Virus record (IMG/VR): IMGVR_UViG_3300029266_000804
Span: 1 to 29,611 of that record
DNA length: 29,611 nt
Reading direction: 5' to 3' (one strand)
DNA from: a virus
In this document: positions 10,448-27,987 of the stretch, one piece after another
How the letters are laid out: each line of letters begins with the position of its first letter
How positions within the stretch are numbered: the first letter of the stretch is position 1
Program-made: the position numbers and the translations under genes
Notes under the pieces: generated by a model
Seen by the model: only the letters and a program-made list of their open reading frames with translations
The model's database searches: none
What the model was told of the DNA's origin: nothing

Positions 10448-10476
10448 ATTATAGCAGATTACAAGACTTATGTCAA
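10448..10476 (-). promoter_or_regulatory. Perfect-consensus sigma70 promoter for hsp20
   Basis: Minus-strand TTGACA (10471-10476), exactly 17 bases, TATAAT (10448-10453), preceded by TGC (extended -10). It overlaps the stop codon region of the DHODH-like gene and gives a leader of about 100 bases before hsp20. Confidence 0.9.
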
Positions 10477-11157
10477 TATATTTTTTAATTTCCATGGTGT
10501 AAAACATACTGTACCTAAACTTACATAATCAGCACCTTGATCGAAATAGTATTTCGCGTCACTTTTATTCGTAACGCCACCACCAGCAATAATAGTGACA
10601 TGAGGGTGCTTTACCTTTATGTAATCTATAATCCTTGTCGTATATGGTTTCAAAATGTTACCGCTTTGACCACCATTCAAAGAATACAGAGTATTGCTTG
10701 CGTGTATCTGATTATAACCAGAATCAACTATTTTGTCAATAAGATTTTCTGAGGCAGTTGGGGGTATTTTACAAATACACCATTCTCTTTTAGTTTGGGG
10801 GAAAATATCAAAACCAGGAAGATTAACTGCGCCGATATCTTTGTCAAGATTTGGGCAACTAATATTAATTTCTACACTTGTGGTGCTTGGTACTACATAA
10901 GACAAACTGATCCAATCATTTTTGTCTATAGCAGCAAGACTCAAAACTTCTGTAGTTTTTGTCCGTTTAAGACCAGTTACAACTCCAGCGTTGCGGAGTC
11001 CAATTTTATTCACCCATCCAGATTTAGTATATCGTAGAGTTTTTAGTACTTGAGGCAGAAGTCCTGGTCTACTCTGGTACGTCCAACTTCCAGTTACACT
11101 AATAGTGTTGGGAAGTTTTATATAATTTCCAAAGGGTGCCGATATAAAATATTTCAT
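10468..11157 (-). CDS. Dihydroorotate dehydrogenase-like flavoenzyme
   Basis: A 229-residue TIM-barrel enzyme similar to DHODH, which oxidises dihydroorotate to orotate in pyrimidine synthesis. Seen: NISCPN at 98-103, matching the class 1 motif with catalytic Cys101; KIPP at 130-133 (substrate or FMN Lys130); HASNTL at 152-157; GGQSG at 162-166; and the phosphate-binding strand IIAGGGV at 189-195. It is much shorter than the usual 310-340 residues, mostly at the N-terminus, so activity or substrate may differ. The start is at 11157, just after the upstream stop; an ATG at 11193 overlaps that gene and has no ribosome site. It ends the late accessory operon, which is odd for a nucleotide synthesis gene. 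Confidence 0.82.
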   Translation of the reverse strand: MKYFISAPFGNYIKLPNTISVTGSWTYQSRPGLLPQVLKTLRYTKSGWVNKIGLRNAGVVTGLKRTKTTEVLSLAAIDKNDWISLSYVVPSTTSVEINISCPNLDKDIGAVNLPGFDIFPQTKREWCICKIPPTASENLIDKIVDSGYNQIHASNTLYSLNGGQSGNILKPYTTRIIDYIKVKHPHVTIIAGGGVTNKSDAKYYFDQGADYVSLGTVCFTPWKLKNILT

Positions 11158-11168
11158 AATGTATATAC

Positions 11169-11639
11169 TCAATTCAAAAAGATTTTGCGCCATTCTTTTT
11201 TATATTCTTCTTCATCAATACTTTTGGTAAAAGATTTTGGGAATTTTTTTATTGCTCTGAGCAATACTCTTATTTTTACATCTGCTTTGATGATAGAAAT
11301 ATTCTGACCACCATTTCTTGCTGCTAACCAACGATGATGACCATCAACAATATAGTTATCGGATGAAACAATTAATGGGTTTGCCTTGTCTATTTTCTTT
11401 AAGATACCCATGATGCTCAGTATCTTACCTAGATTAAAGTCAGATTGAGTCGCACTCAACTTTTTTGCTTTGATCTCACCCTTTTCCATCTTTATACCCA
11501 GACTTGTTAGATAAGTAAGGAGTTCTGCATAATCTTTTGGATGCACTTGGGGCATATCTAATCTTTCGATTTCAAGAGTATCCTTAGACTTAGGAGTGGT
11601 TGCCCTAAATTCTGCTATTACTTGACTATATTTACGCAT
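11169..11639 (-). CDS. ParB/sulfiredoxin-like domain protein with capsid-targeting-like leader
   Basis: A 156-residue protein with a ParB-like nuclease/NTPase core: NPLIVSSDNYIVDGHHRWLA, including the DGHHR motif of the fold. Known: this domain occurs in DNA segregation proteins, nucleases and phage proteins, so the reaction is uncertain. The N-terminus MRKYSQVIAE resembles the T4 internal-protein propeptide MKTYQEFIAE and ends in I-A-E, a gp21 protease consensus. This suggests packaging into the head and injection. It lies 15 bases after the upstream gene in the late accessory operon. Confidence 0.72.
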   Translation of the reverse strand: MRKYSQVIAEFRATTPKSKDTLEIERLDMPQVHPKDYAELLTYLTSLGIKMEKGEIKAKKLSATQSDFNLGKILSIMGILKKIDKANPLIVSSDNYIVDGHHRWLAARNGGQNISIIKADVKIRVLLRAIKKFPKSFTKSIDEEEYKKEWRKIFLN

Positions 11640-11654
11640 ATCTAATTACCTTAC

Positions 11655-12056
11655 CTATTCGTATTTTATGACTTTATCAGGCGTCTTAAAATTTTTCTTC
11701 CTCATAACAGTTTTCATCACAACGTCAAATTCGTCATTTCTCTGGTCATACTTAACAGCAACAGGAATATTTAAATCGCTCTGCATATCTTTTATAACTG
11801 CTTCAGCACCAGCAACACCTTTGATGGATTTACCTTGACGCTTGTATATCTTTTTAATAAAATCGGCAAGTTCTTTCATGCTGATGCAAGGATCATTTCT
11901 ATCATCACCCATTCTATCACCAAAATGCCTAGTGAAATTAAAATCGATTCCATATTTTTTAAACAATTTATCTACAACAGTTTCAAATGTTTTGATTTGT
12001 TTAATACCAATAAGATCGCATTTACCTTCGTCTAAATGTTGTTTAAAGTTTTTCAT
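11655..12056 (-). CDS. Late operon protein with capsid-targeting-like leader, unknown function
   Basis: A 133-residue basic protein. The N-terminus MKNFKQHLDE ends in L-D-E before Gly, fitting the gp21 cleavage rule (L/I-x-E). The body contains FTRHFGDRMGDDRND and ends VVMKTVMRKKNFKTPDKVI, a pattern I associate with conserved T4-like phage hypotheticals but cannot assign to a reaction. His, Arg and Asp in TRHFGDR could be catalytic or structural. The ATG overlaps the stop of the upstream gene (ATGA), so translation is coupled. Confidence 0.7.
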   Translation of the reverse strand: MKNFKQHLDEGKCDLIGIKQIKTFETVVDKLFKKYGIDFNFTRHFGDRMGDDRNDPCISMKELADFIKKIYKRQGKSIKGVAGAEAVIKDMQSDLNIPVAVKYDQRNDEFDVVMKTVMRKKNFKTPDKVIKYE

Positions 12057-12520
12057 TTTAGTTTTTTCAACCTTTTCAATTGGTAAACAACCCCGTGCTC
12101 ACCGTCGATTTCTTTGAAATTAAATCCCAGTTTAGATGCATATTTTTTTAATAATCTACTGTATAATTTAGACCTGCTGGGGTTTGCGCTTCCATCTGGG
12201 GTTTCTGAATGCGCTTTTGATGCTGAGAAAATAATTTCGTCAAGATTGGGATTTTCTTTAACGTAAGTTTTGATATGATTTATGACCGCACCAAAGATTT
12301 GCATTTGACTGCCCTTACCAGTAACTCGACTATGACCATTTACGTCAAAAGATATACTAAGTTCGCTGTCTTCTATCTTATATCTCAGTTCTATCTCTTG
12401 TGTTTCCACTTTACCGCTATATACTTGAATTGACCGCGAGTTATTGAACTTGGTGTCGTGTTTTAGAGTCCATTTGACTTTGGTATTAAATGCTTCACTG
12501 AACTCCTGAAATGTTTTCAT
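12053..12520 (-). CDS. Late operon protein with capsid-targeting-like leader, weakly GNAT-like
   Basis: A 155-residue protein starting MKTFQEFSEAF, very close to the T4 internal-protein leader MKTYQEFIAEA; the putative cut site is F-S-E before Ala, a near match. The C-terminal half (GSQMQIFGAVINHIKTYV, then SRSKLYSRLLKKYASKLGF) looks like the helix-strand pattern of phage proteins sometimes labelled acetyltransferase, but no clear acyl-CoA loop is visible, so I leave it unassigned. It lies directly after the SprT-like gene and overlaps the next gene by four bases. Confidence 0.7.
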   Translation of the reverse strand: MKTFQEFSEAFNTKVKWTLKHDTKFNNSRSIQVYSGKVETQEIELRYKIEDSELSISFDVNGHSRVTGKGSQMQIFGAVINHIKTYVKENPNLDEIIFSASKAHSETPDGSANPSRSKLYSRLLKKYASKLGFNFKEIDGEHGVVYQLKRLKKLK

Positions 12521-12521
12521 T

Positions 12522-13271
12522 TTAGGTAACTCCGCGTATTGCTATTATTATTTTATTTTTATTTTCTTTGAAATACGCACTAATCTCTGCAAATACGTGT
12601 GGTTCCACTGCACTAGCACCACCAAAGGTTTTTAAAGTTCTTTTGACCGAAAGCGTATGATATAGATTGGTAGGCATCACACCAACCAATAAGAGTTTAT
12701 ATCTTTTCTCTATGTGGTGTTTATACTTTGTATAATGTGCAAGGGGATCAGAGACACTTTTATTGTGTAGTGTAACAAATGCTTTATTCTCTTTATTCAC
12801 ATATAAAGAAACGATATATTCTTTGGTTTTATCCTTATATTCATCAGCAAGGTCTAATTTTCCGATTGCTTCAGTTGCAGGTATTTTCAAATTATATCTG
12901 GTGTTTAATTCTTTTAGTTTACTCATAAAAATGCTACCATGCATAACGCCATAATCATTAAGTTTTTTATGTGCAACCCAAACGTGAATCATTTCATGTA
13001 ATAATATCGAAATGATATCTTCATTTGATCTTTTCAGAGTATTCGAAATTTTAAGATGATTTATTTTTACAACTTCTTTTGTTCTTTTTAGCACTTGAAG
13101 TCCAACTTCACCACCAAGTCTTTTATTCTTGTACCAAACAATTGGAAAATCGTTGGGTAATTCGCCTTGAAAATATAATTTATTAAGAGAATTATATGAA
13201 TCCAACAAATCTAATTGAGGCATTACTTTTTCAGTGATAAGTGTTTCTACGAACTGATTGAAAGTCTTCAT
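12522..13271 (-). CDS. SprT-like zinc metalloprotease with capsid-targeting-like leader
   Basis: A 249-residue protein. Seen: zinc motif HEMIH at 92-96 in LLHEMIHVWVAH and a third ligand His111 in MHGSIF, the arrangement of SprT/Spartan-type proteases, which cleave DNA-bound proteins in eukaryotes. The leader MKTFNQFVETLITE ends in I-T-E before Lys, a gp21-type site. The C-terminal 100 residues are an unassigned alpha/beta region. An injected protease could remove host proteins from DNA or degrade a defence factor; that is inference. The ATG overlaps the stop of the HNH gene (ATGA). Confidence 0.8.
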   Translation of the reverse strand: MKTFNQFVETLITEKVMPQLDLLDSYNSLNKLYFQGELPNDFPIVWYKNKRLGGEVGLQVLKRTKEVVKINHLKISNTLKRSNEDIISILLHEMIHVWVAHKKLNDYGVMHGSIFMSKLKELNTRYNLKIPATEAIGKLDLADEYKDKTKEYIVSLYVNKENKAFVTLHNKSVSDPLAHYTKYKHHIEKRYKLLLVGVMPTNLYHTLSVKRTLKTFGGASAVEPHVFAEISAYFKENKNKIIIAIRGVT

Positions 13272-13525
13272 GTTCGTCTTCTTGGTTCAGTGCGATTGTA
13301 TTTTACGGTAACACTTGATAGATTATCTTCGTTATTATTTAAAGGATCGTTATCTTTGTGGTGGATATCTCTGCCATCGAAAGGTGCTGCTTTTCCAACT
13401 TTTTCCATTTTACGTCTAGCACGTTTTCTGGCAGCATTCCTCTCCATCTGTACTGGAGTTCCTAAGTAATTTTCACGCTCTTTCTTATAATCCCTTTCAC
13501 AAAGATATGCCTTAAAAGTCTTCAT
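13268..13525 (-). CDS. Small HNH-motif protein with capsid-targeting-like leader
   Basis: An 85-residue, strongly basic protein. Seen: an HNH-type core DIHHKDNDPLNNNEDNLSSV at 53-72 (His55/His56, Asn64/65, Asn68), as in small phage HNH nucleases, preceded by an Arg/Lys/Ala helix. The N-terminus MKTFKAYLCE matches the leader seen on neighbouring genes and ends in L-C-E, a gp21-type site. It could nick host DNA after injection, or assist packaging as some HNH proteins do. The ATG overlaps the upstream stop (ATGA). Confidence 0.78.
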   Translation of the reverse strand: MKTFKAYLCERDYKKERENYLGTPVQMERNAARKRARRKMEKVGKAAPFDGRDIHHKDNDPLNNNEDNLSSVTVKYNRTEPRRRT

Positions 13526-13755
13526 GATGCATTATCCCAAAAAGTTTTACTCATTTCACCCATAGAGACTGTGGAAGTACCAGATGCTGAATTTACTGTT
13601 TTTCGAACATCTGTATATACCGAATGACCATTGGTAGTTCTAACTCCGCTAGTTTGCTTTAACCATAGTGGTCTTAATGGACTAGTAGCGCCAGGATCAG
13701 CAGGGGCGTTGTTATATTGCCAACTTGGATTGTTTGTAATAGTTACCCATGCCAT
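13522..13755 (-). CDS. Small late protein, probable virion component
   Basis: A 77-residue protein starting MAWVTITNNPSWQYNNAP and ending GEMSKTFWDNAS; rich in Thr, Ser, Asn and Trp, with a beta-structured look. I associate this sequence type with conserved small late proteins of marine T4-like phages but cannot name a function. ATG has GGAC 6 bases upstream and lies 29 bases after a T4-type late promoter. It is the first gene of the late accessory operon, followed by four genes joined by stop/start overlaps. Confidence 0.75.
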   Translation of the reverse strand: MAWVTITNNPSWQYNNAPADPGATSPLRPLWLKQTSGVRTTNGHSVYTDVRKTVNSASGTSTVSMGEMSKTFWDNAS

Positions 13756-13783
13756 GTTTTAGTCCTTTATTATTTGTTCTTAC

Positions 13784-13791
13784 TATTTATA
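13784..13791 (-). promoter_or_regulatory. T4-type late promoter
   Basis: TATAAATA on the minus strand, followed by GTAAG. This is the T4 late -10 recognised by gp55. It serves the 77-residue late gene and the operon behind it. Confidence 0.8.
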
Positions 13792-13813
13792 TGTTTAAGA
13801 ATAAAACTTTTCA

Positions 13814-14371
13814 TCACAAGTAAGGATTTATTATGGTTTCTATATTTTTAATAATTTTCTTATGTGTGGGACTTAGGTCTTTTCTGTCTTTTTTAACTGC
13901 ATCCAATGCAAGTTTGGTATCACCACCATATTTCTTTTGCCATGCTGGAGGTTGAAGCGCAATATCACCAACATTTGCAAGTCTGTCAGCAAGTTTAATG
14001 ACTAATGCCCAAGAGGTCATGTTGACCATTTTACCTTTGATATATTCGCCCTTGCCGCCTGCTGCTTCCAGATCATCTTTTTTAGTGGTCAATTGGTCAA
14101 CAAGATTGGCAACCAGACCACCAAACTGCTTAACTAAGTCTTCGTGAGTTAAATCAGTATCTTCTATAGTATCGTGCAAGTATGCTGCTTGGACTAATGC
14201 TGATAAGTTTTTAGAATTTGGTTTGAACTTAGCAACTATTTTGGCAACTTCTTTAGGATGTGCAATATACTCGCCACCGTTCTTTCTGAATACGCCCTTA
14301 TGCGCTTTTGTAGCAGTTCTTAATGCACTCAAAGCACTTTCGTTTATGGTATGTGATGTGAAACTCTGCAT
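13814..14371 (-). CDS. HD-domain (p)ppGpp hydrolase-like protein with capsid-targeting-like leader
   Basis: A 185-residue single-domain HD hydrolase of the SpoT/MESH1 type. Seen: ATKAHKGVFRKNGGEYIAHP (His24, His38), the HD pair in AAYLHDTIEDT (His66, Asp67, with the ED that follows) and VIKLADRL with Asp129. No synthetase, TGS or ACT domain is present, so it would only degrade alarmone, to GDP or GTP plus pyrophosphate. In LADRLHN-type motifs the His is replaced by Ala here. The leader MQSFTSHTINE ends in I-N-E before Ser, a gp21-type cut site. It starts directly after the regA stop and is downstream of a late promoter, which fits packaging in the virion. Confidence 0.85.
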   Translation of the reverse strand: MQSFTSHTINESALSALRTATKAHKGVFRKNGGEYIAHPKEVAKIVAKFKPNSKNLSALVQAAYLHDTIEDTDLTHEDLVKQFGGLVANLVDQLTTKKDDLEAAGGKGEYIKGKMVNMTSWALVIKLADRLANVGDIALQPPAWQKKYGGDTKLALDAVKKDRKDLSPTHKKIIKNIETIINPYL

Positions 14372-14785
14372 TTATTTTCTTCCTATGTTGTACTTAGGAC
14401 ATAATTCCCAATTTACTTTTTCTTTGAAAGGAATAATTTTGATTTGTCGCAGAGGTGCTAAATTTTGAGCAACCGATTCATTTTGTATTGAAACCAAACC
14501 CCAATCGGACATGAGTGTAGCAATAGTATTTCTACGCCCTATGTCACTTTCTTCCAAGTTGGACTTTTTACCATCTAGTAAAAATAATTCCTTAAAATGA
14601 ACTATAAAGTATCTGCCTTGCTTGTGCAAAATGTGGCACGATTGAAATAGTTTATTTTCTTTTCGACTCGATACGCCTATTCTTGTTAGTGTTTCTCTTA
14701 CCTTTAAAAAATCATCAGGTTCATTTAAGGTTACTTCCAACATATCAGTTGGTGACCAGTTAATTACATTAGTATCTTCATTCAT
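14372..14785 (-). CDS. regA: RegA translational repressor
   Basis: RegA binds ribosome-binding regions of early phage mRNAs and represses their translation. The protein aligns well with T4 RegA: DDFLKVRETLTRIGVSS, LFQSCHILHKQGRYFIVHFK, a RRNTIATLMSDWGL stretch and the C-terminal WELCPKYNIG. It has about 14 extra N-terminal residues if the ATG at 14785 is used; an ATG at 14743 would give the T4-like start, and neither has a strong ribosome site. It follows gene 62 as in T4, but also has its own late promoter, and is followed without a gap by the HD hydrolase gene. Confidence 0.96.
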   Translation of the reverse strand: MNEDTNVINWSPTDMLEVTLNEPDDFLKVRETLTRIGVSSRKENKLFQSCHILHKQGRYFIVHFKELFLLDGKKSNLEESDIGRRNTIATLMSDWGLVSIQNESVAQNLAPLRQIKIIPFKEKVNWELCPKYNIGRK

Positions 14786-14827: not shown

Positions 14828-14835
14828 TATTTATA
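14828..14835 (-). promoter_or_regulatory. T4-type late promoter upstream of regA
   Basis: TATAAATA on the minus strand, followed by GCATT, between genes 62 and regA. It would give late transcription of regA and the HD hydrolase gene. Confidence 0.75.
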
Positions 14836-24377: not shown

Positions 24378-25724
24378 TTATGCACCCAGAATGTTGTCCA
24401 CTCTGAAGATTCTGTAGTACTGGTTTGTACGTACAGTGGCAAGACCGTTTGCGGGCGCAGCGCCAACAAATGGGTTCGATACCATACCATAACGGGTTTT
24501 GAAACCAATTTTTGGTTGGAAATCGTTCTCACCAACGGCGCGAACCATGGTCAGAGGTACGTATGGGCAATAGAAGATACCAGCATCATATGCGTTTGTA
24601 CCTTTATAACCGACAGTGATATAGTCAACAGTGGCATATGGGTCAACATATACTTTTGTACGACCATTAAGAACACCAGCAAAAGTGTTACCAGTGTCAT
24701 CAACATTCAAGTTGGTTGACATTGCTGGAGCATAATCCAACATACCAGTTGCTGCCAAGCACGATGCAACATCACTGGAAGTGATGATGAAGTTACCGCG
24801 ACCTCTACGAGTTTCTTTGGCAATGTTATTTGCTTCACGCTCGATTTGGACCATGAGACCTTTAAACTTCTCTACGCTCCAACGACCATCAGCATCTGTC
24901 TGAAGATCAAACACACCATTCAGCAAGGTGTTACCAGTGGATGCACCAGTTTTTGCTTGTGAGTTAATGGTACGAATTACTTCGCGGTTGATTTCTGCAA
25001 GAATCTCAGTTGAAAGAATATTGGCAAGTTCGCTTTCAGCGTCCAGACCGTGAATTGCTTTCAAATCCTGTGCGAGTTCAAGCGAATATTCCGCTTTCAA
25101 TGCGCGTGTTTTGGCAGATACAGTTGCTTTTGAAATGGTGAAACCCATTTCAGCAAATGCGCTTGCGCCAGTTGTACCCAGCATTTCGCCATTGGCGAGA
25201 GTCATTGGTGTACCTGTGAGCGGATCAACACGTTGATCGTCAATGGTTGAGTCAGTGTCAGTGTCTGTTACACCACCAAGACCAGAACCATCTGCTAATT
25301 GAGTGCTTGCAGAATCGCCCGAATAACCAGAAACTGCTTCGCCAGTTAATGCTTCACCGTTAGCAGTAGCACCTGAACGTGTTGTTTCGTAGGTTGACTT
25401 CATGGCAAAGATCAGTCCAGTTGGACCAGTCATTGGTTGAACACCACATACGTCATATGCCATCATATTTGGCATGGCACGACGAACAAGCGAAATCAGA
25501 ACTGGGTTCCAATTAGCAACATTTGCTGTGTTGTTTGATGGTGCTGCTTCTGTCAGTTGACCGAAACCACCTTGTGCTGTTTGTTGCTCACGCAGAGCAA
25601 TTTCTTGGTTCTCAAGCACAACAGCAGTTACTGCTTTGCGGTGCTTATCTTGAATTGCGCCAGCAGATTCTTCATTCAGAACCGGGGCCCACTTTTCAAT
25701 CAATTGGTTGTAGTTCATTTCCAT
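24378..25724 (-). CDS. 23: Major capsid protein gp23
   Basis: The hexamer-forming head protein, 448 residues. Seen: an N-terminal propeptide of about 59 residues with the gp21 cut site QLTE before AAPS (Leu57-Thr58-Glu59), then NVANWNPVLISLVRRAMPNM, a marker stretch of T4-like gp23, GPTGLIFAMKSTY and the C-terminal DNILGA. After cleavage the mature protein is about 389 residues, shorter than T4's. Strong AAGGAG upstream; 12 bases after gene 22. Confidence 0.97.
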   Translation of the reverse strand: MEMNYNQLIEKWAPVLNEESAGAIQDKHRKAVTAVVLENQEIALREQQTAQGGFGQLTEAAPSNNTANVANWNPVLISLVRRAMPNMMAYDVCGVQPMTGPTGLIFAMKSTYETTRSGATANGEALTGEAVSGYSGDSASTQLADGSGLGGVTDTDTDSTIDDQRVDPLTGTPMTLANGEMLGTTGASAFAEMGFTISKATVSAKTRALKAEYSLELAQDLKAIHGLDAESELANILSTEILAEINREVIRTINSQAKTGASTGNTLLNGVFDLQTDADGRWSVEKFKGLMVQIEREANNIAKETRRGRGNFIITSSDVASCLAATGMLDYAPAMSTNLNVDDTGNTFAGVLNGRTKVYVDPYATVDYITVGYKGTNAYDAGIFYCPYVPLTMVRAVGENDFQPKIGFKTRYGMVSNPFVGAAPANGLATVRTNQYYRIFRVDNILGA

Positions 25725-25736
25725 TATGGATACTCC

Positions 25737-26828
25737 TTAATTACTTGCTTTAATAGCGGCAACATATTGCGCCATACTATTTGATACGTTTACGTCTACA
25801 TCCGTATCTTCTTGGGTTTCTTCTGTAAGTGTTTCTTCTACAATAGCAGCAGGTGCGACTGCTGGTTTACCGTGGAAGTAAGACTCTTTGATGGTCTCGA
25901 CTTTAAATTTGAAATTTTCTTCAGTTTCAAATTCTACGCCTTCAACCAGTTTTTCCAATTTAGATGCTTCAGTACTAGCAAGATCATTTGCTGCTTCTAC
26001 AATAATTGCAGCGCGTTTCAAATTAGAAATTGCTTCGTTCATATCAACATTATTTTGGGTTTGCTTATTCAAAAGTTCTTCTAGTTCTTGAACTTCTTCT
26101 GCAAGTTGGTCTACTAGGTCAACTTTGGTTTCTGGAACTTCGATGTAAGATTCTACAAACAGGTCTTTCAACTTGCCCATGAAACCTTCAGCGATTTCCG
26201 ACCGAATACCATGCTCTACAGCAATACGGTTTTCTTCAACCCATTGTTCGACAACGTAGTTTAAATAAGAATCAATCTTGTCTACAAGGTCACCCTTTGC
26301 TTCTGTGATTGCTTCTTCAGTCTCTGTAGCATATTGCTCTTCCAGAGAATAGACTTTTTCACCAAATTCCTCATCCAATTCTTGAATTCTAGTTGCAACT
26401 CTTGTAGTAAGTGCTGCCTCAAAAATTGTACTTGCTTTTGCTTTAAAGTCTTCTGATAGAGATTCATCAGCAGAAATTAGGACTTCTAAATCAGCACTGG
26501 TAGTATCTTCTACCATTGCAACATCGTCTTCCATTTCTACTTCTACTTCTTCACCCATCATTTTTTCATATGCTGCTTTGATTTCAGTCTTGGTTTTCAT
26601 ACCATTCATTTTATCAGTCATAGCATTGACCATTCCCGCCTTAGTCTTAGGAGGGGATGCTTTTTTAGTAACTTTGCTTGCGAGTGCTACAGATTGCACA
26701 GAATCATCTTCTGCGCCTTCTGGATCATCCGAAAGTGATGCTTCCGCTACCATTACTTCTTCGTGAGATTCCACAATTTCGTTGTCATCATGGACCTCAA
26801 GTTCCTGTTCGTTATTTTGATCAGTCAT
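25737..26828 (-). CDS. 22: Prohead core scaffold gp22
   Basis: The main internal scaffold of the prohead, degraded by gp21 during maturation. The 363-residue protein is highly acidic with long helices and coiled coils (for example VQELEELLNKQTQNNVDMNE). It sits between the protease and capsid genes as in T4 and is longer than T4 gp22 (269). Recognised mainly by position and composition. AAGGAG lies 6 bases before the ATG. Confidence 0.88.
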   Translation of the reverse strand: MTDQNNEQELEVHDDNEIVESHEEVMVAEASLSDDPEGAEDDSVQSVALASKVTKKASPPKTKAGMVNAMTDKMNGMKTKTEIKAAYEKMMGEEVEVEMEDDVAMVEDTTSADLEVLISADESLSEDFKAKASTIFEAALTTRVATRIQELDEEFGEKVYSLEEQYATETEEAITEAKGDLVDKIDSYLNYVVEQWVEENRIAVEHGIRSEIAEGFMGKLKDLFVESYIEVPETKVDLVDQLAEEVQELEELLNKQTQNNVDMNEAISNLKRAAIIVEAANDLASTEASKLEKLVEGVEFETEENFKFKVETIKESYFHGKPAVAPAAIVEETLTEETQEDTDVDVNVSNSMAQYVAAIKASN

Positions 26829-26842
26829 ACTTGACTCCTTTT

Positions 26843-27493
26843 TTATTTCAGCAACGAGAGGAAATTTTCAAACCCACGAATTTGCGCTTCTTGCAAACCT
26901 TTTGATGGAGTTCTTTTTATTTCAGTCTCTATTTTTTCAATTTCTTGAGGTTTAATCATTCCATTATCCCATACCCATTCAACACCTTCCATAATGCCAT
27001 TTACAAAAGCATTAGGTGCACTTGGGTCTTGAACAATGTCAACGGTGTTAAGAATAAAATCTTCCTTAACTTCCATTATCCCATTACGTTTCTCAAGACT
27101 TCCCATACCACGAGTCGAAACACCTAGTTGACAACCACCATCCAGCAAACCTTTTACAATTTTACCCATAGGAGTGTCTAATATAAGTGCTTTACCCATC
27201 ACATCATTTCCTTCAAATTGAAGTTCTGTAATACGATGGGATACCTTGTCCAAATTAACTGTTGGTCCTTCAGGATGATTTAACTCACCTACAGCACGAC
27301 CAGTGCTAACTTGTTCTTTTACATATTTGTTAACAGCATTTTCCATAACTGCTTTTGGATACATTCTTTTGTTGCGGTTCGCTGCTTCTGCCTGAGCAAA
27401 CACGCCTTCTATCTGATAAGTTTTTTCACCGTTAGCATTTGCTTCCGTGATTAAGTTTAATGCACCGTCACAGTACTCAGCAATCAGTTTCAT
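26843..27493 (-). CDS. 21: Prohead protease gp21
   Basis: The serine protease that cleaves capsid, scaffold and internal proteins after Glu in L/I-x-E sites. Seen: ELNHPEGP (His73), GVSTRGMG (Ser126) and VQDPSAPNA (Asp156), the prohead protease active site. The 216-residue length matches T4. Its own start MKLIAEYCDGALNLITEA contains a possible self-cleavage site (I-T-E before Ala). It would also cut the leader-bearing accessory proteins in this window. Confidence 0.96.
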   Translation of the reverse strand: MKLIAEYCDGALNLITEANANGEKTYQIEGVFAQAEAANRNKRMYPKAVMENAVNKYVKEQVSTGRAVGELNHPEGPTVNLDKVSHRITELQFEGNDVMGKALILDTPMGKIVKGLLDGGCQLGVSTRGMGSLEKRNGIMEVKEDFILNTVDIVQDPSAPNAFVNGIMEGVEWVWDNGMIKPQEIEKIETEIKRTPSKGLQEAQIRGFENFLSLLK

Positions 27494-27496
27494 ATC

Positions 27497-27691
27497 TTAT
27501 CCCTTATATTGCTTAATGAATTCTTTTGCCATGGCGAGACCTTCTTTTTCTGAACCATAAGTGTCCAAAACTTCGCCATCTATTTCAACTTTAAATTCTT
27601 TTCCTACTTTTTTTATATCAACTTTTGCACCATCTATTTTCATAGATTTTTCAATTAGTAGGTCTGCATTTAATTCTTTAAAAGTCTTCAT
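27497..27691 (-). CDS. Small prohead-associated protein with capsid-targeting-like leader
   Basis: A 64-residue protein, directly upstream of gene 21 (3-base gap) and after a late promoter. The leader MKTFKELNADLLIE ends in L-I-E before Lys, a gp21-type site; the remainder (IDGAKVDIKKVGKEFKVEID) is a small basic beta-like domain. It could be a prohead core protein or a packaged internal protein. T4 has small core genes 67 and 68 at this place, but I see no firm similarity. Confidence 0.75.
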   Translation of the reverse strand: MKTFKELNADLLIEKSMKIDGAKVDIKKVGKEFKVEIDGEVLDTYGSEKEGLAMAKEFIKQYKG

Positions 27692-27722: not shown

Positions 27723-27730
27723 TATTTATA
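27723..27730 (-). promoter_or_regulatory. T4-type late promoter for the prohead gene cluster
   Basis: TATAAATA on the minus strand, followed by CAATA. It serves the 64-residue gene and by read-through genes 21, 22 and 23. It sits just upstream of the stop region of the 83-residue gene. Confidence 0.8.
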
Positions 27731-27735
27731 CAAAT

Positions 27736-27987
27736 TTATTCTTCACTTTCGTCTTTATTAAACATTTTTTGACCCATAGCGACTCTTTCTACCTCTATGG
27801 CACTTTGGATTTTATCTCCAATCATGTCGGCAAAAACTTCACCCGCAACCCTAAGATTACCGTCATGGATAGCATCAATCATTTCGTGTGCTGGATCAAG
27901 TTCTTGTTCCACTTCACTAACATCTTTGCTGTCATCTTCACCACTAATTTCATGGTCTACTTCAAATACGATATCTTCATCTTCCAT
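27736..27987 (-). CDS. Small acidic prohead core-like protein
   Basis: An 83-residue acidic protein, starting MEDEDIVFEVDHEISGEDDS and ending QKMFNKDESEE, with a central helix HEMIDAIHDGNLRVAGEVFA. Acidic small proteins at this place in T4-like genomes are prohead core components (gp67/gp68). The assignment rests on position and composition. AGGAG lies 8 bases before the ATG, after a late promoter. Confidence 0.7.
   Translation of the reverse strand: MEDEDIVFEVDHEISGEDDSKDVSEVEQELDPAHEMIDAIHDGNLRVAGEVFADMIGDKIQSAIEVERVAMGQKMFNKDESEE

Follow-up and report, generated by a model that had tools for sequence, protein, structure and literature searches.

Why would proteins of unrelated folds, encoded next to one another in a phage genome, begin with almost the same few residues? 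The question is raised by a 29.6-kb virus contig known only from environmental DNA (IMG/VR record IMGVR_UViG_3300029266_000804), the whole 29,611-nucleotide stretch of which is referred to here as the window. Seven of its proteins carry a short N-terminal leader, and we propose that this leader is very probably a capsid-targeting sequence (CTS) of the T4 internal-protein type, mounted on unrelated accessory proteins. The proposal is based on four observations: the residues enriched in the leader match those mapped in T4, the bodies behind it are unrelated, leaderless versions of such bodies exist elsewhere, and a leader-bearing relative is found in virions. Packaging into the head is well supported and cleavage by gp21 after the leader glutamate is likely in the window phage; injection and host takeover are inferred.

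In T4, a CTS of ten residues suffices, mutations in the IPIII leader having assigned residues 4 and 7 to targeting and residues 8 and 10 to processing, and gp21 cleavage follows L/I-x-E (PMC9026906). The injected proteins Ip1, Ip2 and Ip3 block type IV restriction enzymes (PMC12373910). The T-even literature already identifies internal proteins by their leader, and the prior view of T4 internal proteins is that of small restriction inhibitors peculiar to the T-even phages. Should the tag be in use on enzymes throughout the marine T4-type phages (alarmone hydrolase, CCA-adding enzyme, SAM lyase, ADP-ribosyltransferase, metalloprotease and nucleases), a leader search would list the injected proteins of uncultured phages, supply candidate anti-defence genes and open the first minutes of infection to test.

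Seven window proteins share a short leader

The seven open reading frames (ORFs) and their N-termini, checked on the sequence, lie on the minus strand where they had been predicted (Table 1). All seven leaders are 9-14 residues long, in agreement with the T4-type range of about 10-19, and all have Phe or Tyr at residue 4; residue 7 is Phe, Tyr or His in five of them and Val or Leu in the other two. L/I-x-E closes six leaders and FSE the seventh, exactly as the original prediction had it. Its reading of the cargo also agrees with our searches, in which the HD_4, SprT and HNH_3 matches are above the Pfam cut-off and the ParB-like protein is recognised by PHROGs. The HD protein matches PDB structures of RelA/SpoT and MESH1 (best 4.8e-16) and contains HDTIED and KLADRLAN, the corresponding residues being invariant in the family; its predicted core is the RelA/SpoT-type hydrolase core of a small alarmone hydrolase.

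Pfam and PDB profile searches gave no credible match for the 133-aa protein. Its AlphaFold model has a pLDDT of 82.6, with leader residues 3-10 below 50 and the first helix starting at residue 18. A resemblance of this protein to the HigB2 toxin was considered and dropped, as the best PDB match reached only E=0.11 and TM 0.34, and no function is claimed for it. A PADLOC search returned no matches.

The leader pattern compared with chance

Could the resemblance arise by chance, given a genome with many Lys, Phe and Glu codons? The test pattern was derived from T4 residues 4, 7, 8 and 10, with His at residue 7 added from the leaders of the original prediction. In its strict form it occurs at 4 of the 43 ORF starts of the window, against none of 209 internal methionines and 0.13% of all positions. 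The T4-exact pattern, M..[FY]..[FYH][LIVM].E, was then counted in 818 nonredundant ORFs of related IMG/VR contigs; 34 starts (4.2%) have it, as do 0.025% of internal positions. This 166-fold excess is not a genome-wide rate, since the contigs were chosen for encoding HD, SprT or 133-aa proteins, and kin ORFs remain among them. With one ORF taken per body family, a mean of 12 of 472 has the pattern, compared with 0.1 from shuffles. When ORFs are selected on an aromatic residue 4 only, the other T4 positions follow: aromatic or His at 7 in 49% versus 12%, Leu, Ile, Val or Met at 8 in 48% versus 28%, and Glu at 10 in 33% versus 6%, with a smaller Glu excess at 9 and little at other neighbouring positions. 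The co-occurrence of these residues has a Fisher p of 1e-27 over partly related ORFs, and the trend is the same with one ORF per family.

In a T4 control (60-108 kb, 67 proteins) the strict test picks IPII and IPIII, and allowing a longer spacer adds IPI together with one chance ORF. The podovirus HTVC010P, with 61 ORFs, has no strict match, nor do the 55 ORFs (mostly tail and replication genes) within bases 1-50,000 of HTVC008M. C48C1, of which 150 of 156 kb were searched, has five strict leaders, four at 63-72 kb and the fifth on UvsW. What speaks for chance is the modest excess, about 9-fold over background, of ORF starts that have just the two aromatics at 4 and 7, but the full pattern is 166-fold over background and is rare or absent in control genomes and regions. 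The probability left to chance or base-composition bias is negligible, the internal-methionine, any-position, shuffle and control-genome counts having already refuted it. The proposal of a common leader on six proteins of unrelated folds is borne out by counts far above chance and by bodies that cluster apart.

Conservation and separability of leader and body

Within families, the positions that are kept are those of the CTS. In 16 aligned HD sequences F4 is invariant and most other leader residues vary; in standalone members of the 133-aa family (alignment A1), a cargo shared by many phages, F4, [FYH]7, [LI]8 and E10 are kept and the other leader residues vary. Close relatives of the ParB-like protein retain MRKYSQVLLE, and an HNH relative (L015:10721-10987) begins MKTFKAYISE. 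There are few relatives for SprT and for the 155-aa protein, and the close-kin conservation test covers the other families. The 155-aa protein is weakly related (24% identity, E=8e-5) to a protein of Vibrio phage D479 that starts MKTLQTYMVE; in this phage (L170:10514-12429) three adjacent ORFs start MEFRTFLTE, MNDFKQFMVE and MKTLQTYMVE. Leaderless versions are known for HD, in Vibrio phage phiKT1024, and for ParB, in Marzo, Aswh_1, LIMEstone1 and Vi01.

Virion evidence comes from relatives. Proteomics of purified S-SM1 virions identified the putative cytidyltransferase T4-GC190 (PMC3037559). It starts MKKFSAFLNE in S-SM1 and MKSFFQFLSE in its S-SM2 counterpart, and the capsid-targeting interpretation is supported both by this protein and by the sequence tests on residues 4, 7, 8 and 10. 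As for the cargo, CsCl-purified virions of Sajous1 contained a ParB protein (PMC10892097); this protein, gp192, may belong to the family of the window protein. The LIMEstone1 relative (28% identity) is recorded as a 'confirmed structural protein' and, having no leader, it supports the cargo and not the tag.

A proposed route into the next host

We propose that the leader genes would be transcribed late, and that aromatic residues 4 and 7 would dock the new protein on a prohead scaffold core of the gp22 type. A gp21-type protease would then remove the leader by cutting behind its terminal [LIVMF]-x-Glu, and what is left of the protein would be retained in the head with the DNA, to enter the host along with the genome at the next infection. 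The set delivered would comprise a (p)ppGpp hydrolase, a SprT metalloprotease, an HNH nuclease, a DdrB-like ParB protein and two unassigned proteins. Host stress signalling and defence would be the probable targets of such cargo, in the opening minutes and ahead of phage gene expression. To judge from their folds, the enzymes may serve in (p)ppGpp removal, proteolysis and DNA cleavage, while anti-defence is a reasonable guess for the unassigned cargo because the injected T4 Ip1, Ip2 and Ip3 block type IV restriction.

Several points weigh against this route and against a CTS as such. Residue 7 is Val in the ParB-like protein and Leu in the 64-aa protein, the FSE site is off consensus, and the residues that follow the predicted cuts (F, G, A, K, R, S, K in the window leaders) vary more than in T4, where Glu-Ala bonds are typical. 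One HNH relative has Asp at residue 10 (MIKFMTFITDE), which in T4 blocks processing and not targeting. The leader is missing from those ParB relatives that are known in virions, the virion evidence is from relatives of the window phage, and the late promoters are judged by consensus match only.

The leader could also target the prohead core while its cargo serves head assembly or DNA condensation rather than the next host. A 64-aa leader protein encoded in the head operon where T4 has gene 68 would suit such a role, and loss of T4 IPIII gives aberrant heads (PMC9026906), but enzyme folds can be recognised in much of the cargo, the set differs between close relatives, and T4 Ip1-3, once injected, inhibit restriction enzymes (PMC12373910), so that we consider this role unlikely. 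A signal for a non-head purpose, for example translation control or tail targeting, would agree with the N-terminal place of all leaders and with the translationally coupled runs in which several of them lie. It is nevertheless very improbable, given that selection acts on amino acids 4, 7, 8 and 10 while the nucleotide sequence is not fixed, which fits the mapped T4 CTS, and that the leader-bearing GC190 is present in virions.

Range of cargo in related phages

A search for such leaders on variable domains, suggested with the original prediction, was run on the related contigs and found about 45 body clusters that carry the leader, some of them not independent (L055 is the 133-aa family) and one, L086 with MPFFNSHTEIME, probably a chance match. 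BLAST single linkage joins families through fused proteins, and its 18-24 leader families are a floor. Common descent of whole genes was ruled out, as the bodies fall in separate clusters. Leader cargo above the Pfam curated cut-offs includes CCA/poly(A) polymerase, SAM lyase, ADP-ribosyltransferase exoenzyme, NT5C 5'-nucleotidase, DUF6267, DUF5824 and DUF6321; RelA/SpoT, zeta-toxin, AAA_33 and acid phosphatase (HAD) lie below them.

The SAM lyase (PF23780, E=1.9e-12; L028:5167-5754), with the leader MQSFKSFLGE, is possibly a packaged form of a SAM-destroying anti-restriction enzyme. A leader of the MKSF[ILTC]xHLNE type is found in 13 ORFs for a CCA-adding/poly(A) polymerase-like enzyme (L004:2112-3335 and relatives), which may be a packaged tRNA-repair enzyme. 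Together with an ADP-ribosyltransferase-like protein (L031:1047-1985), the SAM lyase would fit, by analogy, injected or anti-restriction roles known elsewhere. Cassette content is variable between close relatives: regA-HD is common to them and the genes after it vary, L004 and L005 having a 115-aa leader protein and the leader-bearing CCA-adding enzyme in place of the window HNH and SprT.

A P-loop kinase-like protein of Aeromonas phage Aswh_1 (L171:13264-14115), near the leaderless ParB relative, starts MKRFKDFVLE, and a similar protein (L102:6298-7275) has the leader MLNFKSFMIE. Among cultured relatives, leaders occur in HTVC008M, Melnitz, S-SM1 and DLP6.

Fused forms

Other contigs have the HD domain embedded in longer open frames, and the 133-aa family is also fused in larger proteins in several contigs. 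Within the 14 residues before the HD core, [LIVMF]xE is present in 13 of 13 fused and 32 of 32 counted standalone proteins, against a background of 15-20% per case, the cases being homologous, some near-identical, and not independent. The motif may be part of the edge of the domain. It is possible, if on balance doubtful, that some phages of this group make their effectors as polyproteins (at least two cargo domains, frames up to 1385 aa), co-packaged and cut in the prohead by a gp21-type protease at linker [LIVMF]xE. If this were true, head maturation would also release an effector arsenal. Internal full CTS copies in fused proteins were rejected as the main evidence: nine were counted against 2.5 in shuffles, and six of the nine are otherwise explained (one N-terminal leader, two in the 133-aa family core and three in a recurring KFKxMFGE linker).

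The linker [HS]T[KQ][KR][FY]KxMFGE recurs in cytidyltransferase/DUF5824-type proteins (L028, L117, L120, L045) and resembles an internal CTS with its cut site.

Relation to known packaged proteins

By sequence criteria, the window proteins belong with the CTS-bearing internal proteins of T4. They are comparable to IPI, IPII and IPIII in the leader (10-19 residues, aromatic 4 and 7, L/I-x-E), in unrelated mature parts, in nonessential variable genes and in the gp21/gp22 head system; the IPI leader MKTFKEFTSTTTPVSTITE resembles the long window leaders MKTFNQFVETLITE and MKTFKELNADLLIE. Unlike these small non-enzymatic inhibitors, the window cargo includes identifiable enzymes and comes from a multi-gene cassette, in a lineage nearest to C48C1, Melnitz and HTVC008M. 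No report of leaders of the T4 CTS type in cyanophages or pelagiphages was found in the open-access literature searched. The T4 ADP-ribosyltransferase Alt is likewise a head-packaged enzyme that is injected, its N-terminal propeptide being cut by gp21 (PMC9026906). With seven residues, this propeptide is shorter than the window leaders, and there is no Alt in the window. The Alt propeptide is not known to have the aromatic 4/7 pattern.

Polyvalent proteins such as P1 DdrB/DarA are packaged effectors too, with DdrB-like ParB and nucleotide-signalling domains (PMC5512222). The window domains differ in being separate proteins, each with its own leader, and Pfam and PHROGs searches gave no second domain in them; the fused forms in relatives carry [LIVMF]xE before HD, but for DdrB it is a peptidase domain of its own that is credited with the processing. 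The SPN3US and phiKZ-type ejection proteins are similar by description, being many packaged proteins with propeptides cut by a prohead protease in a different phage lineage with a different protease.

Cassette, late promoters and head genes

Table 1. Leader-bearing proteins, late promoter matches and neighbouring genes of the window
Feature	Coordinates	Strand	Leader (coordinates)	Basis
ParB-like protein, 156 aa	11169..11639	-	MRKYSQVIAE (11610-11639)	PHROG 2859 E=6.2e-26 and ParB-like PHROGs
133-aa protein, no assigned fold	11655..12056	-	MKNFKQHLDE (12027-12056)	
155-aa protein, no assigned function	12053..12520	-	MKTFQEFSE (12494-12520)	
SprT-like zinc metalloprotease, 249 aa, HEMIH motif	12522..13271	-	MKTFNQFVETLITE (13230-13271)	PF10263 E=2.8e-12
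HNH endonuclease-like protein, 85 aa	13268..13525	-	MKTFKAYLCE (13496-13525)	HNH_3 PF13392 E=1.5e-6
Leaderless first ORF of cassette, 77 aa (MAWVTITNN...)	13522..13755	-		sequence
T4-type late promoter TATAAATA, 28 nt 5' of cassette	13784..13791	-		consensus
HD-family (p)ppGpp hydrolase-like protein, 185 aa	13814..14371	-	MQSFTSHTINE (14339-14371)	HD_4 PF13328 E=1.9e-13
regA translational repressor, directly upstream of HD	14372..14785	-		PF01818 E=8.5e-42
TATAAATA 5' of regA-HD (regA start 14785)	14828..14835	-		consensus
gp23 major capsid protein, LTE site at residue 59 (FGQLTE/A, cut at the slash)	24378..25724	-		PF07068 E=5.7e-144
gp22-like scaffold core protein	25737..26828	-		PF25623 E=5.9e-62
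gp21 prohead protease (Peptidase_S77)	26843..27493	-		PF03420 E=9.4e-43
64-aa protein, T4 gene 68 position	27497..27691	-	MKTFKELNADLLIE (27650-27691)	
TATAAATA 5' of 64-aa gene	27723..27730	-		consensus match
83-aa acidic protein, T4 gene 67 position	27736..27987	-		position and composition only

The cassette is a run of the leaderless 77-aa ORF followed by five leader ORFs, joined in order by an ATGA overlap (13522/13525), a second one (13268/13271), a 1-nt gap, a third overlap (12053/12056) and a 15-nt gap. Five leader genes behind a late promoter, with mostly ATGA overlaps, had been predicted; the promoter and the overlaps are there, and the run is headed by the leaderless ORF. A further late promoter had been assigned to the HD gene. 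This gene has no late promoter of its own, because the second TATAAATA lies upstream of regA and the HD ATG directly follows the regA stop. The six copies of TATAAATA in the window are no enrichment (3.6 expected; 16 of 100 shuffles reach six). In the related contigs the motif lies within 70 nt upstream of 8 of 46 leader ORFs, against 33 of 749 others (p=0.0015), and late expression of the leader genes is supported by this excess and by the placement of TATAAATA.

The window phage classes as T4-type, and the nearest relatives of its gp23 are those of C48C1 (65% identity), Melnitz (60%) and Pelagibacter phage HTVC008M (58%). The head system expected of a CTS-bearing phage, namely gp21 protease, gp22-type scaffold and gp23, is encoded in the window, and gp21 itself has a candidate site LITE/A at residue 17. 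Gene 67 and 68 positions were judged against the T4 order 20-67-68-21-22-23. For the seventh leader protein, that of 64 aa, the predicted position beside gene 21 and the leader hold; it may be a core protein or cargo, the position suiting both. It has 34 related loci, in which F4 is kept, as is the final Glu in most, one group having lost it (LLLGS).

Pfam searches gave no match for the 83-aa acidic protein or for the 77-aa leaderless ORF. The MAWVTITNN... protein, 77 aa in the window and without family match, has 190 aa in a close relative (L007:10151-10723). Just past the cassette, a dihydroorotate dehydrogenase-like ORF (PF01180, E=1.4e-11; window 10468-11193) overlaps the end of the ParB ORF.

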